Source: Gemmatimonadales bacterium (lineage in GTDB: Bacteria > Gemmatimonadota > Gemmatimonadetes > Gemmatimonadales > GWC2-71-9). Taken from it: DNA of 64,000 nucleotides. Shown piece by piece: positions 1,011-62,928 of the stretch. Below the pieces are notes generated by a model that had not been told where the DNA came from, did not search any database, and saw only the letters and a program-made list of their open reading frames with translations. The stretch is from contig JAICLE010000005.1 in assembly GCA_025927545.1 (NCBI GenBank), positions 1 through 64,000 on the forward strand. The letters run 5' to 3'. Within the stretch, counting starts at the first letter, position 1. The number at the start of each line of letters is the position of its first letter. The position numbers were made by a program, and so were the translations under genes.

Positions 1011-2115
1011 ATGGATGAGCTCGTCGAGCGTCTCACGGAGCTGCAGCAACGTGTCACCGAACTTCGAGAGTTTCTTTGACCTGACGGCCAAGTCGGATCG
1101 GCTGCAGTCGCTCGAAGCGTCTCAGGCGGAGGCGGGGTTCTGGGCCAACCCCGAGAGCGCGCGCCGGACGGTGCAGGAGCTCCAGGCGCTGAGGGGCTGG
1201 GTGGGCCCATGGGCGGATTTGCACGGACGGCTCACCGGCGCGCTCGAGCTGGCCGAGCTGCTCGAAACCGAGCGGGACGAAGCGCTGGAGACCGATCTGG
1301 CGCGCGAAACCGACGCACTGGTCGAGGCGGTGGAAGCCTTCGAGCTCAAGGCCATGCTGCAGGGCCCGGACGACCGGCGCGACGCACTACTCACCATCCA
1401 CCCGGGCGCGGGCGGCACCGAGTCGCAGGACTGGGCGGAGATGCTCATGCGCATGTACGTCCGCTGGGCGGAGCGTCATGGCTTCCAGGTGGCCGTGCTC
1501 GACCTGTTGCCGGGTGAGGAGGCGGGCCTCAAGTCGGTCTCGATCCAGATCAAGGGCGAGTACGCCTACGGCTATCTCAAAGCCGAAAAGGGCGTGCACC
1601 GGCTGGTCCGGATCTCTCCCTACGACTCCCAGGCGCGGCGGCACACCTCGTTCGCGTCGGTATTCGTGTATCCCGACGTCGATGACACCATCGAGATCGA
1701 CCTCCGGGACGAGGACATCAGGATGGACGTTTTCCGCGCTTCGGGCGCCGGCGGGCAGCACGTCAACAAGACGTCCTCCGCCGTCCGCCTTACGCACGTG
1801 CCGACCAACACGATCGTCTCCTGCCAGCAGGAGCGCAGCCAGACCAAGAATCGGGCGACAGCCATGAAGATGCTTCGGGCTGCCATCTATCAGAAGAAGC
1901 TCGAGGAGCAGGAGGCGGCGCGGGCAGTCGTCGAGGCGACCAAATCCGACAATTCCTGGGGCAACCAGATCCGTTCGTACGTCTTCCAGCCGTACACCAT
2001 GGTGAACGACCACCGGACCGAGGTGAAGGTGGGCGACGTTCAGCGCGTGATGGACGGCGACCTCGACGAGTTCATCCAGGCCTACCTCAAGCGCTTCGGG
2101 GGCAAGGCCGCGTGA
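1011..2115 (+). CDS. prfB: Peptide chain release factor 2, with programmed +1 frameshift
   Basis: RF2 releases finished proteins at UGA and UAA stops. The ORF track starts it at 1015, but the true start is ATG 1011, eight bases after GAGGAG. That frame runs 22 codons to CTT TGA C (1074-1080), the classic RF2 recoding site. A +1 shift continues in the ORF-track frame at GAC 1078, giving about 367 residues as join(1011..1076,1078..2115). The catalytic GGQ motif is present (SGAGGQHVNKT). The codon-recognition tripeptide reads SPY instead of the usual SPF. The stop overlaps the lysS start (GTGA), so the two genes are translationally coupled. Confidence 0.95.
1065..1080 (+). promoter_or_regulatory. 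prfB: prfB programmed +1 frameshift site
   Basis: CGAGAG TTT CTT TGA C. The slippery CTT codon is followed by an in-frame UGA and then C, the weak stop context seen in RF2 genes. A purine-rich GAGAG element sits three bases before CTT, where the internal Shine-Dalgarno lies in E. coli (AGGGGG). When RF2 is scarce the ribosome slips forward and makes more RF2, which is an autoregulatory loop known for this family. Here the internal Shine-Dalgarno match is weaker than in E. coli. Confidence 0.9.
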
Positions 2116-56378: not shown

Positions 56379-57335
56379 TCAGTCCCGCGGGTCGGGCTTG
56401 TCCAGCCGATCGAGCGCGCGGGCGACCGCCCGCGTCTCCTCCTGGACCCCCGCGATCATCTCTCCCAGCAGCCCGAAGCCGAAGAGCACGATGCCGCTGA
56501 TCACCATCGTCTCGACCAGGTTGAGCAGCGGGCGGAGGCCGATGCCGAAGCCGAAGCGCAGCACCAGTGCGACGACTCCCGCCAGGAGACCGATGACGAA
56601 CAGCGTGGCCCCGCCGATGCCGAAGAACAGCATCGGCTTCCGGCCGAATCGGAGCTGGAACCAGACGCTGAGCAGATCGAACATCCCTACCGGAATCCGG
56701 CGCCAGCCGAATTTGGAGACGCCGGCGCGGCGGGGGTGGAGCGGCACGGGCAGCGAGTCGAGGCGGAAACCGTCCGCCGCGGCGATCACCACCATGTATC
56801 GGTGCCAGTCGGGCCGGAGCGGGACCCCCTGCATCACCTCGCGCCGGTACGCCTTGACGGAGTTGAGGTCGGTCACCCGCACGCCGAACAGCCAGCGGCA
56901 CAGGGTATTGTAGACCCGGCTCACGAATGCCTTCTCGTACTTCCCCTGCTTCGTGCCGGTGACGATGTCGGCGCGGCCGGCGAGGATCGGTGCGACGAGC
57001 CCGGGGATGTCCTCGGGGAGATACTGCAGATCGGCCGGGTAGAAGACGAACACGTCGCCCCGGGCCACCTCGCCCGCGGAGCGGAGCGCGTCGGCGATGC
57101 CGCGCTGCCGGCGGTGAGTGACGACGCGCAGAAACGGGTAGGTCCGCTCCAGCTCGCGTAGCACCCGCGCGGTTTCATCGCGCGAGCCGTCGTCGACGAC
57201 CACCACCTCGAACGAGAACGCCGCCGGCGAGAGTGCCTCGCCGCACAGCCGGAGAAACTCGGGGAGGTTCTCCGCCTCGTCCTTGGCCGGCACCAGGACG
57301 CTGACGTCCAGCGTCTCGGCCGCCGCACCAGTCAT
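56379..57335 (-). CDS. Glycosyltransferase family 2 with C-terminal membrane segments
   Basis: A 318-residue GT-A glycosyltransferase. The nucleotide-sugar motif is VLVPAKDEAENLP, the DDG site is VVVDDGSRDETA, and the ADLQYLP motif supplies metal binding. Two membrane helices (about residues 233-260 and 265-295) anchor the C-terminus, like the ArnC/GtrB group that makes undecaprenyl-phosphate sugars. The ATG overlaps the rpoN stop. With the DPM1-type gene there are two candidate lipid-donor synthases in this cluster. Confidence 0.87.
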   Translation of the reverse strand: MTGAAAETLDVSVLVPAKDEAENLPEFLRLCGEALSPAAFSFEVVVVDDGSRDETARVLRELERTYPFLRVVTHRRQRGIADALRSAGEVARGDVFVFYPADLQYLPEDIPGLVAPILAGRADIVTGTKQGKYEKAFVSRVYNTLCRWLFGVRVTDLNSVKAYRREVMQGVPLRPDWHRYMVVIAAADGFRLDSLPVPLHPRRAGVSKFGWRRIPVGMFDLLSVWFQLRFGRKPMLFFGIGGATLFVIGLLAGVVALVLRFGFGIGLRPLLNLVETMVISGIVLFGFGLLGEMIAGVQEETRAVARALDRLDKPDPRD

Positions 57336-58846
57336 ACCCGCTTCCGCATGCGCGCCGGCAGGATGCCGAGTTGGTCGCGGTACTTGGCCACCGTGCGCCG
57401 GGCGATCTGGATGCCCTGCTCCTGGAACAGATGCACGATCTGCTGGTCCGTGAGCGGCTTCGCGCTGTCCTCTTCGCCCACCATCTTCTGCAGCTTGGCG
57501 CGGATGGAGCGGGCGCTGGCGTCCTCACCCGACGCGGTGGCGAGCGCGCTCGAGAAGAAGAACTTGAGCGGGAGCACCCCGCGGGGGGTTTGCACGTACT
57601 TCTCGTTGGTTACGCGGCTGACGGTGGACTCGTGCATGTTGATCACCTCCGCCACCTCCCGCAGGGTGAGCGGCCGGAGATGCTCGATCCCCTTCTCGAA
57701 GAAATCGCGCTGCCGGTCCACGATGAAGTTCATGACCTTGAGCATGGTCTGCCGGCGCTGCTCGATGGCCTGGATCATCCAGTTGGCGCTGTTCATCTTC
57801 GACGCGATGAACTCGCGGTTCTCGGGGGTCATCTTCTTCTTGTCGCGCGCGATCTCCTGGTAGGAGCGGCTGAGGCGCAGGCGGGGCATCCCGGTGTCGT
57901 TGAGGAACACCTGGTAGCGGGTGCCGATCTTTTCCACGATCAAATCGGGGATGATGTAGCCGTCGCTCTGGCTGGCGTGCTTGAGCCCGGGCTTGGGATC
58001 GAGCCGGGCCAGCTCGTCGGCCGCGGCCTGCACCGCCACGGGCTCCACGCCGAACCGCTTGGCCAGATCGTTCCACCGGTGCGCGATGAGGTCCTGGAAG
58101 GCATCGTGCACCAGGCGATAGGTAAGCGAGGTGACGTCGGCCTGCTCGCCGAGCTGAATGAGGAGGCACTCGCGCAGGTCCCGCGCCCCGATGCCGGGCG
58201 GGTCGAGGCGCTGGATGATGGCCAGCATCTCCTCGGCCTCGGGCAGCGTGTAGAAGGCGGGCGAGGCGGCGTCGATGCCGGCCGGCGCGGCCGGCGCCGC
58301 GGTATCGTCCTCGGCATCGGACTCGTCCTCCGCCTCGGGTTCGCCCTCGACATGTCCTTCGACCAGGTGATTGACCGAGCCGAGGATCTCCTCCAGCGAT
58401 GCCGCCAGGTACCCCTCGTCATTGATGTTGCCGAGGAACTCCTCGGCGAGGAGGAGCTGGCGGGGCGTCAGCGTCAGCATCTGGAGCTGCTCCCGCAGGT
58501 AGTCGATCAGGTCCTTGGTCTCGACCGTCACGGGCTCGGTGTACTCGAGCTGCTCGTACTGCTCCCGCGTGCCGCCGACCTCGAAGCCGTTGAGGAGGAT
58601 CTCCTCCCAGTCCATCTCCTCCTCTTTTTCCTTCTGTTCCTTCTCCTGCTCGGCGTCCTTCTGCTCCGGCGCCTCCTCCTCCTCGGGCTCCAGCAGCTCC
58701 AGGAACGGGTTGACCAGCAGCTCCTGCTTCAGGTGCTGCTGGAGGTCCATCATGGGCATGTAGAGCATGTCCATGGCCTGGTAGAGCCGCGGGTTGACGC
58801 GCAGCTCCTGCCGCATGCTGGTGTGCTGGGAGAGTCCCGTTCTCAT
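57332..58846 (-). CDS. rpoN: RNA polymerase sigma-54 factor RpoN
   Basis: A 504-residue sigma factor for -24/-12 promoters that need AAA+ activators. Region I is present (LRVNPRLYQAMDMLYMPMMDLQQHL). An acidic Glu/Lys-rich stretch lies at about 55-78 and a second acidic insert near 170-190 (EPEAEDESDAEDD). The core-binding and -12 regions follow, and the RpoN box ARRTVAKYRDQL ends the protein. ATG 58846 overlaps the lptB stop (ATGA), preserving the lptB-rpoN pairing seen in proteobacteria. Confidence 0.95.
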   Translation of the reverse strand: MRTGLSQHTSMRQELRVNPRLYQAMDMLYMPMMDLQQHLKQELLVNPFLELLEPEEEEAPEQKDAEQEKEQKEKEEEMDWEEILLNGFEVGGTREQYEQLEYTEPVTVETKDLIDYLREQLQMLTLTPRQLLLAEEFLGNINDEGYLAASLEEILGSVNHLVEGHVEGEPEAEDESDAEDDTAAPAAPAGIDAASPAFYTLPEAEEMLAIIQRLDPPGIGARDLRECLLIQLGEQADVTSLTYRLVHDAFQDLIAHRWNDLAKRFGVEPVAVQAAADELARLDPKPGLKHASQSDGYIIPDLIVEKIGTRYQVFLNDTGMPRLRLSRSYQEIARDKKKMTPENREFIASKMNSANWMIQAIEQRRQTMLKVMNFIVDRQRDFFEKGIEHLRPLTLREVAEVINMHESTVSRVTNEKYVQTPRGVLPLKFFFSSALATASGEDASARSIRAKLQKMVGEEDSAKPLTDQQIVHLFQEQGIQIARRTVAKYRDQLGILPARMRKRV

Positions 58847-60006
58847 GCCACGGACTCCAGACGGGCGCGCAGGCGCGCGGTGAGAGTGGGACCCAGATAG
58901 AGCTGGGCCACGCGGTCGTCGTACACGAGCTCGCTGACTTTGCCGGCCGCCTGCACCTTGCCTTCGAACATGATGTAGGCCCGATCCACGATATCGAGGG
59001 TCTGTTCGACGTTATGATCGGTGATGAGCACGCCGATGCCCCGGTGCCTGAGGCCGGCGACGATGGTCTGGATGTCGTGCACCGCGATCGGGTCGACGCC
59101 CGCGAAGGGCTCGTCGAGCAGCATGAACTTGGGATCGGTCACCAGCGCCCGGGTGATCTCGAGGCGCCGGCGCTCGCCGCCGCTCAGGCTGTAGGCCCGG
59201 TTCCGCCGGAGATGCTTGATCGACAACTCGTCGAGCATGCGGTCGAGCTGGCGCTGGCGGTCCGCCCGCGACAGGTCCCTCGTCTCCAGGATGGCCAGAA
59301 TGTTTTCCTCGACCGTCATCTTCCGGAAGATCGAGGGTTCCTGGGCCAGGTATCCGATCCCCGCCCGGGCCCGCTCGTACATCGGCGCCCGGGTCAGGTC
59401 GAGCCCGTCGAGCCGCACATGCCCGGCGTCCGGCCGGATGAGTCCCGTTATAAGGTAGAAGGTCGTGGTCTTTCCCGCCCCGTTGGGGCCGAGCAGTCCC
59501 ACGATCTCCCCCTGTGCCACGCGGACGCTCACCTCGTTCACGACCCGCCGGCCCTTGAAACTCTTGACGAGGCGCACGCCCTCCAGGACGCTGGTGGCGG
59601 CACGCGACGGCGTCGCCGGCCGGGAGCGCTGGGCCGCGCGCCGGGCCGCGGCGACCAGCGCGTCGTAGATCGCCCGCCGGTCCTCCGCGTCCGCGCCCCA
59701 CCAGGCGACCCGCGGCCGTACCGGGTTCCACTCCGTCTCCGCGGTGTCGAGGATCCAGCCCTCGGTGGCCAGGCGCGGCAGGACGGAGCGGCCCAGGTGG
59801 GCGCGGGTCTCGTCGCCCGTGATCTCCTGCTCCTTGGCGGTGCCGATCGCCTGGTAGCAGGCGAGGTGCGCCTCGCGGTAGGTCATCACGAGGTCGGCGA
59901 AGGGGGCCGAGTCGCTCGGCCCCGCGGCCTTGGTGATCGCGGCGAGCCCGATGGCGACGGAGGGATCCCGGTCGCCGAGCGCGGCGATCCATTCGGGGGC
60001 GGTCAC
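58843..60006 (-). CDS. lptB: LPS export ABC ATPase LptB with an N-terminal extra domain
   Basis: A 387-residue protein starting at GTG 60006, which overlaps the lptA stop (GTGA); the ORF track's 60363 start is in lptA. The C-terminal about 245 residues are LptB: Walker A GPNGAGKTTTFYLITG, signature YSLSGGERRRLEI, Walker B LLDEPFAGVD and ITDHN switch. The first about 135 residues are an unrelated helical domain (GDRDPSVAIGLAAITKAAGP, DALVAAARRAA) of unknown family. No ATG, GTG or TTG lies at the junction (SRAATSVLEGVRL), so LptB has no start of its own. Confidence 0.9.
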   Translation of the reverse strand: MTAPEWIAALGDRDPSVAIGLAAITKAAGPSDSAPFADLVMTYREAHLACYQAIGTAKEQEITGDETRAHLGRSVLPRLATEGWILDTAETEWNPVRPRVAWWGADAEDRRAIYDALVAAARRAAQRSRPATPSRAATSVLEGVRLVKSFKGRRVVNEVSVRVAQGEIVGLLGPNGAGKTTTFYLITGLIRPDAGHVRLDGLDLTRAPMYERARAGIGYLAQEPSIFRKMTVEENILAILETRDLSRADRQRQLDRMLDELSIKHLRRNRAYSLSGGERRRLEITRALVTDPKFMLLDEPFAGVDPIAVHDIQTIVAGLRHRGIGVLITDHNVEQTLDIVDRAYIMFEGKVQAAGKVSELVYDDRVAQLYLGPTLTARLRARLESVA

Positions 60007-61403
60007 CGGGCCCTCCCGCGCTTCCGGGCGGTGTCGGCCGGGGTGGCGGTCGAATCGGTCGCGGCCTCGAGCTGGATCCCGTCCACCTTGCCGCGAATGT
60101 CCACCCGCTCCACGCCGCCGTCCGGCGCGGGGTCCATGGTGACCGTGATCGCGTCGCCCCGGGCGTAGTTGATGGACGGCCGCCGGGGCGCGCTGGCGTT
60201 GCGCTCCAGGTGGTAGGACTGCGCCCCCGTCCGCGCCTCGATGCGGCTCAGCACCGCGCGCTTCCGGCCGGCGGAATCGGCCACCGCGAACCGGGCGATG
60301 ACGGTATCGCCCCGCATCCAGTCCCGGTCCTTCGCGGCCGAGTCCACGGTGCCGCCGAGCCATGCCTTGCCGAAGCCGCGCACCTCCTTGAGGAGCTGCC
60401 CGGGCGATTCGAGCACGAGCGAGTCGGCCCGCATCGCATAGCTCGGCGAGACCGCGTAGGGCCGCGTCGTCTTCCCCCAGGCCACCGTGCGCTCCAGCTT
60501 CCGGTCGGTAAGGTCGAGCGCGATGGTGTCAGCCACGAGATCCCACTCGCCGTTCACGGCGTGGCCCGCGCCCTTGGCCACGACCCGGTCGAGCTCACGC
60601 TGCTCGAGCCGCAGGTCGATCCGTTTCCCGGTGAGCCGGAAGCTGTCGGGGCCAAGGCCGTGCAGGACCGGCTCGCCGCCCAGAAGCGTGCCGTCGCTCC
60701 CCGCGCCGGTGTCGAGCCGCATCGAGTCGGAGCGGGCGGCGAAGTCGCTCCGGTCGATCGTGACCTTGCCGCCGGCAAAGATCCGGTCGTTGCCCTTGAA
60801 CCGGACGCGATCGGCCACGATCAGGTACGGCTCGGGACGGCGTCCGGTGGCGGCGCTGTCGGCCTCGACGTACTGGATCTTCGGGCGGCCGACGGCGTAC
60901 ATCTCGAGCGTATCGCGCACGCCGGGCACCGCGCGGTAGTAGTCGAGCGATGGACCGGTCAAGGTCGAGCCGGTCTCGAGATTCTTCGTGCTCACGTCGC
61001 CACGCGCGGCCCAGCGTTCCCCGTTCTTGTAGTACGTCCCGCGGTCGGCGTCCATGGTGAGCGTCGAATCCCGGTACTTCACGTGCCCGATGAACTGCAC
61101 CACGTTGCCGCCGTACGCGGCGACGCTGTCGCTCTGCATGGCGATCTCGGTGCCGCGGCAGCTCAACCGCACGTTGCCGCCGGCGAAATAGTTGGTCCCG
61201 GTCGGGGTCTCGTTGACGGCGCCCCGGCGATCCACATTATCGATCTGGAACACGCAGCGCTCGGAGGCGGGCGCGGGCGGCGCGGGAGCCGGAGGCTTGC
61301 GCCCGGCCGGCTGCTGCGCGGCGGCCCCCGTGACCAGCGCCAGGCACGCGATGACCGTCGTCCCGGGCGCTCTGGCGCCGAGCCCCGCGCGGCGTCCCGT
61401 CAC
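60003..61403 (-). CDS. lptA: Long LptA/OstA-like periplasmic LPS transport protein
   Basis: A 466-residue protein with a signal peptide (about 1-30, LALVTGAAAQQP) and a repeated beta-jellyroll pattern: GNVRLSCRGTEIAMQSDSV, HVKYRDSTLTMDADRGTYY and FAGGKVTIDRSDFAARSDSM. LptA carries LPS across the periplasm from the inner-membrane complex to LptD. Standard LptA is about 185 residues; this is more than twice that, with later repeats extending the chain. GTG 61403 overlaps the lptC stop. The position between lptC and lptB supports the call. Confidence 0.82.
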   Translation of the reverse strand: MTGRRAGLGARAPGTTVIACLALVTGAAAQQPAGRKPPAPAPPAPASERCVFQIDNVDRRGAVNETPTGTNYFAGGNVRLSCRGTEIAMQSDSVAAYGGNVVQFIGHVKYRDSTLTMDADRGTYYKNGERWAARGDVSTKNLETGSTLTGPSLDYYRAVPGVRDTLEMYAVGRPKIQYVEADSAATGRRPEPYLIVADRVRFKGNDRIFAGGKVTIDRSDFAARSDSMRLDTGAGSDGTLLGGEPVLHGLGPDSFRLTGKRIDLRLEQRELDRVVAKGAGHAVNGEWDLVADTIALDLTDRKLERTVAWGKTTRPYAVSPSYAMRADSLVLESPGQLLKEVRGFGKAWLGGTVDSAAKDRDWMRGDTVIARFAVADSAGRKRAVLSRIEARTGAQSYHLERNASAPRRPSINYARGDAITVTMDPAPDGGVERVDIRGKVDGIQLEAATDSTATPADTARKRGRAR

Positions 61404-61966
61404 TGTTCCTGGCCCGGCAGCAGCAGCCCGTCGCCGGCGACGCCGCGCGGGCGGTCGGTGACGACGTTCTTGAAGTCGGGGTCGGAGGTGAAGCTGTTCC
61501 CTTCCAGGTGCTCCGTGCCCTTGTCGAAGGTGAAGTGGGTGCTCGTCGAGATGGTGTTCTTCGCGTTGTCGTACCGGAGATTCGCGGTGCGCAGCGTCCG
61601 CCCGTCCGGCGACACGACGACCACCGTGCTCTCGGCATCCATCGACCCGTCCTGCCAGCGATATGTGCCCCGTTTGGCGGTGAGCGTGGAGCCTTCTTCG
61701 CCGCGCGCGTCGAAGAAGACGACCCGGATATTGCGCAGGTCCGTGATCTGGCTGGCCTCGTAGAAATATGCCGTGTCGGCATCCACCCGGCTCCGCCGGA
61801 TGCCCTCCCGGGTGACATAGTGCGAGAACCCCTCGAGCACCTGGTCGGCACTGTCGGGCGCCTGAACGGTGGTCGTGGGCTTGGCCCCACTCTCTTCACA
61901 GCCGGCGAGCACGGCACAGGCCGAGAGGATGACCAGTGCGTCTCTTCCAAGGCTCCCGCTTCTCAC
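61400..61966 (-). CDS. lptC: LPS export protein LptC (lipoprotein-like)
   Basis: A 188-residue protein starting at GTG 61966 (GTGA overlap with kdsD; the ORF-track start at 62143 is in kdsD). The N-terminus ends in a lipobox-like AVLAGC, so it is probably lipid-anchored instead of being held by the usual single membrane helix. The body has the LptC jellyroll segments YFYEASQITDLRNIRVVFFD and LTAKRGTYRWQDG. It passes LPS to LptA. Confidence 0.82.
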   Translation of the reverse strand: MRSGSLGRDALVILSACAVLAGCEESGAKPTTTVQAPDSADQVLEGFSHYVTREGIRRSRVDADTAYFYEASQITDLRNIRVVFFDARGEEGSTLTAKRGTYRWQDGSMDAESTVVVVSPDGRTLRTANLRYDNAKNTISTSTHFTFDKGTEHLEGNSFTSDPDFKNVVTDRPRGVAGDGLLLPGQEQ

Positions 61967-62928
61967 ACCGCCCCCGCCCGCATCAGATCGTGCAGGTGCA
62001 CCGCACCGACCACGGCGCCGCCGCCATCCACCACCGGCAGAGCGATGACGCCGTGCCGCTCCATCGTGCCGACCGCCGCGGCGGCGAGCTCGTCGGCGGC
62101 CGCGGTGCGCGGTGCGCGCGTCATGACGGATGCCACGGGGCAATCGAGGAAATCGGAATCGCGCTCCGCCAGACGGGTGAGATCGCCGGTCGTGAGCACG
62201 CCGGCAAGCCGGCCATCGTCCACCACGAGCGCCAGTCCGCGATCGCGCGCCAGGCTCACCACCGCCTCCCGCATCGTGGCCGCGGGCCCGAGCAGGTGCA
62301 CCGGGCGGACCATCACGTCCCTCACGCGGAGCAGCAGCCTGCGGCCGAGCGAGCCGCCGGGATGGAGTGCCGCGAAGTCCTCGCGGCGGAACCCCTTCAC
62401 CTCCAGCAGGGCGATGGCCAGCGCGTCGCCCAGCGCGAGGGCGACCGTCGTACTCGTCGTCGGCGCGAGACCGTGGGGGCAGGCCTCGTCGGCGACCCCG
62501 CCGTCGAGTGCCACCGTGGCCACCCGCGCGAGCGTCGAGCCCATGGCACCGGTGATCGCGACGAGCGGCACGCCCGTCCGCTGCAGCGCGCCCACCAGCC
62601 CGAACAGCTCTTCCGACTCGCCACTCTTGCTCAGCACGATGGCCGCGTCGCTGGGCCGGACGAGCCCGAGGTCGCCGTGCAGCGAATCCACCGGATGGAC
62701 GTAGCTGGCCGGCGTGCCGGTCGAGGTCAGCGTGGCCGCCAGCTTCCGCGCGATGAGCCCCGACTTGCCGACGCCCGACACGATGACCCGGCCCGAGGCG
62801 TCGGCCAGCAGCCGCACGGCGCGCGCGAACCGGTCATCGAGCCGTTCGGCGGCCGCGACGACGGCGGCGGCCTCCTGTTCCAGCACCTGGCGCCCGAGGG
62901 CGGTGAGGGCCGGAGTCTCAAAGGGCAC
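61963..62928 (-). CDS. kdsD: Arabinose-5-phosphate isomerase KdsD
   Basis: A 321-residue SIS-domain enzyme with two CBS domains. It converts ribulose-5-phosphate to arabinose-5-phosphate, the first step to Kdo. The SIS site shows VIVSGVGKSGLIARKLAATL and VLSKSGESEEL, then LHGDLGL and HPGGSLGRRLL. CBS pair: VRDVMVRPV and VASVMTRAP. GTG 62928 overlaps the kdsC stop. Confidence 0.94.
   Translation of the reverse strand: MPFETPALTALGRQVLEQEAAAVVAAAERLDDRFARAVRLLADASGRVIVSGVGKSGLIARKLAATLTSTGTPASYVHPVDSLHGDLGLVRPSDAAIVLSKSGESEELFGLVGALQRTGVPLVAITGAMGSTLARVATVALDGGVADEACPHGLAPTTSTTVALALGDALAIALLEVKGFRREDFAALHPGGSLGRRLLLRVRDVMVRPVHLLGPAATMREAVVSLARDRGLALVVDDGRLAGVLTTGDLTRLAERDSDFLDCPVASVMTRAPRTAAADELAAAAVGTMERHGVIALPVVDGGGAVVGAVHLHDLMRAGAV

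Follow-up and report, generated by a model that had tools for sequence, protein, structure and literature searches.

The LPS-export ATPase LptB ranks with the best-conserved components of the LPS exporter and, to our knowledge, normally carries no accessory domain. In a Gemmatimonadales bacterium, and in many of its relatives, we found LptB fused to an additional N-terminal domain. The fusion is real, and we did not find it described in the open literature that was searched, where nothing relevant turned up on Gemmatimonadota LptB or on extended forms of LptB. The best reading of the observations detailed below is that the domain is a lineage-specific, dispensable protein-interaction module on the LPS-export ATPase. 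More specifically, there appears to be about an even chance that the gene encodes a single protein in which LptB is preceded, on a flexible linker, by an acidic winged-helix-like domain that serves as an accessory module for protein contacts. The gene was noticed in a window comprising the first 64,000 nucleotides of contig JAICLE010000005.1 (Table 1). The first-pass annotation, made from the letters of this window, had described one frame that opens at a GTG overlapping the lptA stop and encodes LptB behind a mostly helical domain of a family that it could not name. The coordinates proved correct, with the gene on the minus strand (GTG at 60006-60004, last codon at 58846, TGA at 58845-58843), and the description of the product was borne out as well, by a TIGR04406 match in the LptB part and the lack of any Pfam or NCBIfam match in the rest, with the topology now refined to winged-helix-like.

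Table 1. Features of the fusion gene and its neighbours (window coordinates, except for the last line, which refers to another genome)
Feature	Position	Strand	Remarks
Fusion gene (N-terminal winged-helix-like domain + LptB)	58843..60006	-	387 aa; GTG start, TGA stop
N-terminal domain, residues 1-128	59623..60006	-	predicted helices 3-13, 15-27, 36-51, 64-81, 107-128; short strands 34, 84, 96-98; winged-helix order
Putative helix-turn-helix, residues 36-81	59764..59901	-	helices 36-51, 64-81; near-invariant L71, R78, L79
Linker, residues 129-138	59593..59622	-	pLDDT <50 at 130-136
LptB ATPase, residues 139-387	58846..59592	-	TIGR04406 and motifs
Val144, sole in-frame GTG near the LptB boundary	59575..59577	-	unconserved in relatives
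GTGA overlap	60003..60006	-	fusion start with lptA stop (60005-60003)
rpoN (sigma-54, TIGR02395)	57332..58846	-	its ATG overlaps the fusion stop (ATGA)
Divergent OstA-like protein in lptA position, upstream neighbour	60003..61403	-	weak OstA_2 match, E 0.058, under cutoff
lptC (TIGR04409)	61400..62143	-	lipobox VLAGC
Unfused domain gene in G207 (L229, G207:C85)	about 1444-1858		between lptA position and plain lptB

The ATPase part carries the full set of LptB features. The TIGR04406 equivalog model matches residues 143-374 with 352.5 bits, against a cutoff of 240, and comparison with solved LptB chains places the beginning of LptB near residue 139. The Walker A motif GPNGAGKT (173-180), the signature LSGGE (274-278), D298/E299 of Walker B, H331 of the H-loop, Q222 and F227/R228 are all invariant in alignment A3. 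Within its own genome, the fusion is the sole LptB-grade match: the runner-up ABC ATPase scores 115 bits against 507 for the fusion, and hence there is no second LptB. The gene order around the fusion (kdsC-like, kdsD-like of the KdsD/KpsF family, lptC, OstA-like, fusion, rpoN) is the usual setting of LPS export, and the partners LptF and LptG are represented by adjacent PF03739 matches on contig C109 of the same genome. In one LptF/LptG-family protein there (G000:C109:1203-2600; loci L288 and L289), the Pfam model is matched in two stretches of a single frame about 80 residues apart, which suggests an insertion within this protein. The gene in the lptA position encodes 466 aa, and it is identified as lptA by its position and by a weak similarity; it is also detected by an LptC/OstA-type profile. 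The lipobox of the window LptC suggests a lipoprotein, and the protein has no obvious transmembrane helix, as is the case in many relatives with or without the domain; all these lipoboxes were called with a simple pattern rather than a signal-peptide predictor. Long open frames on the plus strand (57371-58900 and 60210-61763), antisense to rpoN and lptA, are ordinary in G+C-rich DNA and were not counted as genes.

The N-terminal domain belongs to no family known from Pfam, NCBIfam, PADLOC or the PDB sequences, and, when searched by themselves, residues 1-143 give no Pfam or NCBIfam match up to E 10. Searches with winged-helix sequence families returned just isolated sub-threshold matches across the 75-77 domain members, none of them significant. 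An AlphaFold2 model of residues 1-143, built with nine relatives, reached a pLDDT of 82.9 and a pTM of 0.77; its elements run helix-helix-strand-helix-helix-strand-strand-helix, with very short strands, and thus contain the winged-helix order (helix-strand-helix-helix-strand-strand). Foldseek comparison of this model with the PDB yielded nothing at E 0.001 or better, the top match (E 0.38) being an unrelated silk domain, and comparison with viral models yielded nothing significant (best E 0.70, probability 0.90, TMq 0.55). The weak PDB matches are mostly winged-helix proteins (ORC, MarR, ArsR, ROQ and MukBEF subunits), and it is because of the topology and the kind of protein that dominates these matches, with no significant match among them, that we use the label winged-helix-like. 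The model, then, points to a winged-helix-like topology outside any named family. When the full-length protein is modelled, both parts are well folded, the linker falls under 50 at residues 130-136, and the pTM is 0.61, so that the relative placement of the domain and LptB is not fixed, as would fit a tethered domain. A flexible, disordered linker is accordingly predicted to tether the domain to LptB; in relatives, the gap from the end of the domain to LptB is mostly 22-28 residues long (range 19-113).

The best conserved positions of the domain are a Gly at 32 (Asp in the window), L71, R78, L79, D14, S16, R44, W103 and R110. The Trp residues, to which the first-pass annotation had drawn attention, fare unequally among 75 sequences: W103 is strongly conserved (60/75), whereas the others are not (31/75 for W93, 14/75 for W84 and 12/75 for W102). 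A short T-G-E-[H/Y/F] motif recurs at the junction of the last domain helix and the linker in many loci of family f2 (e.g. L137, L151, L156). Nucleotide sensing, also proposed at first sight, found no support, given that the domain matches no nucleotide-binding family or fold.

Other Gemmatimonadota share the fusion, and in one genome (G207) a separate gene for the domain lies beside lptB; these are the two arrangements that the first-pass annotation had proposed to look for. An initial search covered 101 genomes, namely, the organism's own and relatives of the same genus, family and order, and found the domain in most of them; the resulting profile (A1, 77 members) matches 68 genomes of the order, with 8 unmatched, as well as genomes from further families of the class. 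The unfused gene of G207 starts with a TTG that overlaps the preceding stop and ends with a stop that overlaps the ATG of a plain lptB; no other such case was seen, the genome is a draft, and an assembly frameshift may account for the split. Of 30 relatives lacking a domain match or showing just a weak one, 24 yielded an LptB when it was sought, and in most of these, the protein begins at the LptB boundary, or not more than a few dozen residues from it, with no recognisable domain. An exception (L240, in genome G222) carries the domain (E 1.6e-6) despite the earlier search, so that divergent copies may also be present in some of the other unmatched genomes. No free copy of the domain was found in the genomes that apparently lost the fusion.

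Another 46 genomes were searched: 6 (L042-L044, L047-L049) contributed plain-LptB loci that fall on the Gemmatimonadota branch or close to it, and the remaining 40 lie outside this branch. Nothing convincing was found across the 46, the sole match being partial (E 0.034, in the L048 genome), and the domain is seen in none of the 40, most of them labelled as other phyla, in a sample that was picked by LptB similarity and is no survey. One of the six (L044) is labelled Gammaproteobacteria, yet its LptB sits among Gemmatimonadota on the tree; it is probably a misnamed or contaminated assembly. A rapid LptB tree (127 sequences; partial support, with 50 of its 124 inner branches open) shows fused forms intermixed with plain ones inside the phylum; the labels of L172, a long-branch paralogue, and of L045 and L080, which come without upstream sequence, are unreliable. 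The simplest reading of this pattern is an ancient fusion followed by several losses, for instance, in G266 and G268, each of which stands beside a fused relative; independent gains are the formal alternative. If repeatedly lost, the domain must be dispensable for LPS export as such, and, being also old, it would be accessory or regulatory rather than essential.

That the fusion is a start-site artefact, in which translation of LptB begins internally and the frame ahead of it forms no part of the protein, is highly improbable, even if there is something to be said for it. The first-pass annotation held that no start codon lies at the LptB boundary, which is accurate insofar as no conserved start occurs there, but overlooks an in-frame GTG at 59577-59575 (Val144), which, judged against E. 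coli LptB, lies about six residues inside the LptB part and has a GGAGG only 2 nt upstream. In relatives, GTG codons are common at positions -2 and +5, and GTG is somewhat over-represented at -2, where it accounts for 44 of 62 listed Val codons (71%) compared with 49% across genes; this commonest of the GTG sites coincides with a Val that is frequent in the SVLEG motif. Most genes, however, have neither a Val nor a start codon at -2, Shine-Dalgarno-like tetramers precede this site in just 26 of 138, and 14 of the 138 distinct genes offer no ATG, GTG or TTG anywhere between the domain and LptB. The start is conserved instead at the front of the domain: in all 9 same-genus relatives, and in one locus from another genus of the family (L014), an ATG or GTG occupies the very position at which the fusion of the window starts, nine residues ahead of the domain. 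Among 181 profile-matched frames in the fetched loci, 177 have the domain in frame with LptB, and the four exceptions are two contig-end fragments (L270, L275) and the one unfused locus, counted twice (L229/L257). The domain is conserved as a protein across the class, with mean column identities of 37% and 31%, and it is under purifying selection in frame, with a median dN/dS among close relatives of about 0.25, compared with 0.08 for LptB. In view of this dN/dS value and of the homologues that most of the order's genomes contain, the frame ahead of LptB is no product of chance. The check for a conserved separate start before LptB in relatives found none, and the fusion was not refuted. To judge from sequence comparison, the fusion is not a start-site error, and several families of the class share both the joining to LptB and the conservation of the frame at the protein level; in this particular species, a second, domain-less LptB could in principle be made from Val144.

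With regard to what the domain does, the main rival of a protein-contact role is a near-neutral one, whereby two overlapping genes gave rise to the fusion, in which the domain now acts as a passive tether or a folding or stability tag with little role in export. The repeated losses, the evolution of the domain at a rate exceeding that of LptB and the disordered linker all speak for such a tag, whereas the persistence of purifying selection, the retention of the domain in most genomes of the order and the conservation of D14, S16, R44, R78, W103 and R110 speak against it, and on balance it seems somewhat unlikely. Distinctly unlikely is that the domain is a DNA-binding winged helix that makes LptB a membrane-tethered transcription regulator linking LPS export to gene expression. 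The topology is what such a regulator would have, and MarR, ArsR and ORC proteins are among the weak PDB matches, but DNA binding is disfavoured because the domain is acidic: across 140 distinct domains, the net charge averages -6.1 and ranges from -17 to 0, with not one positive, and the median pI is 4.9. Some winged-helix proteins that are acidic overall still bind DNA via a local basic patch; in the window, the putative recognition-helix stretch is net neutral, and no Pfam HTH family matches the domain. Yet another conceivable role, and an unlikely one, is that the domain replaces the regulatory transmembrane helix of LptC, the LptC found here being a putative lipoprotein devoid of this helix. 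The lipobox of LptC favours this possibility, as does the observation that, in E. coli, LptC reduces the ATPase rate of LptB2FG via its transmembrane helix (PMC9972910), but a lipobox LptC is also present in domain-less Gemmatimonadota (e.g. L291, L293-L299), which argues that the two traits are not linked.

The most economical reading remains a module for protein contacts, with either LptB2FG or a cytosolic partner. The LptB dimer would carry two copies of the domain in the cytoplasm, and these would act through protein-protein contact, not through DNA binding or nucleotide sensing. Such contacts could be with LptB2FG itself, tuning its ATPase activity or assembly, or else, could recruit a cytosolic partner; in either case, the fusion would be accessory to the export cycle because it appears to be old in the phylum and repeatedly lost. 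Control of LPS export by the domain is a putative role. The most far-reaching version of this idea, that an uncatalogued Gemmatimonadota family of winged-helix-like domains directly regulates LptB2FG from the cytoplasmic side and thus represents a control point of LPS export undescribed elsewhere, is a tentative possibility. The envelope biology of Gemmatimonadota is little studied; with a lineage-wide fusion, one naturally occurring unfused form and several losses, the phylum offers a convenient natural comparison with which to ask whether LPS export can be tuned by an input from the cytoplasm.

Among known systems, the closest is the LptB of LptB2FG itself (TIGR04406; e.g. PDB 6mhu, 5x5y, 9doh), with which the fusion shares a complete ATPase with all motifs and the kdsD-lptC-lptA-lptB-rpoN gene order; the LptB chains in the PDB, of about 240-280 aa, align from about residue 139, and the fusion differs in adding some 138 N-terminal residues. 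The winged helices of MarR, ArsR and ORC/Cdc6, which account for many of the weak structural matches, have the same order of helices and strands as the predicted domain, but the latter is acidic, sits on an ABC ATPase and shows no significant sequence or structure match to them. A functional parallel can be drawn with MukE and MukF of MukBEF and with JetB-like proteins. A search with MukE/JetB-like profiles matched 1 of 75 domain members (JetB, E 0.0056), which is at chance level, as are the matches to MukBEF chains. Without demonstrable homology to the domain, MukE/MukF and JetB-like proteins are likewise small, of the winged-helix type and partnered with an ABC ATPase, except that those systems act on DNA, whereas the fusion acts on LPS export.
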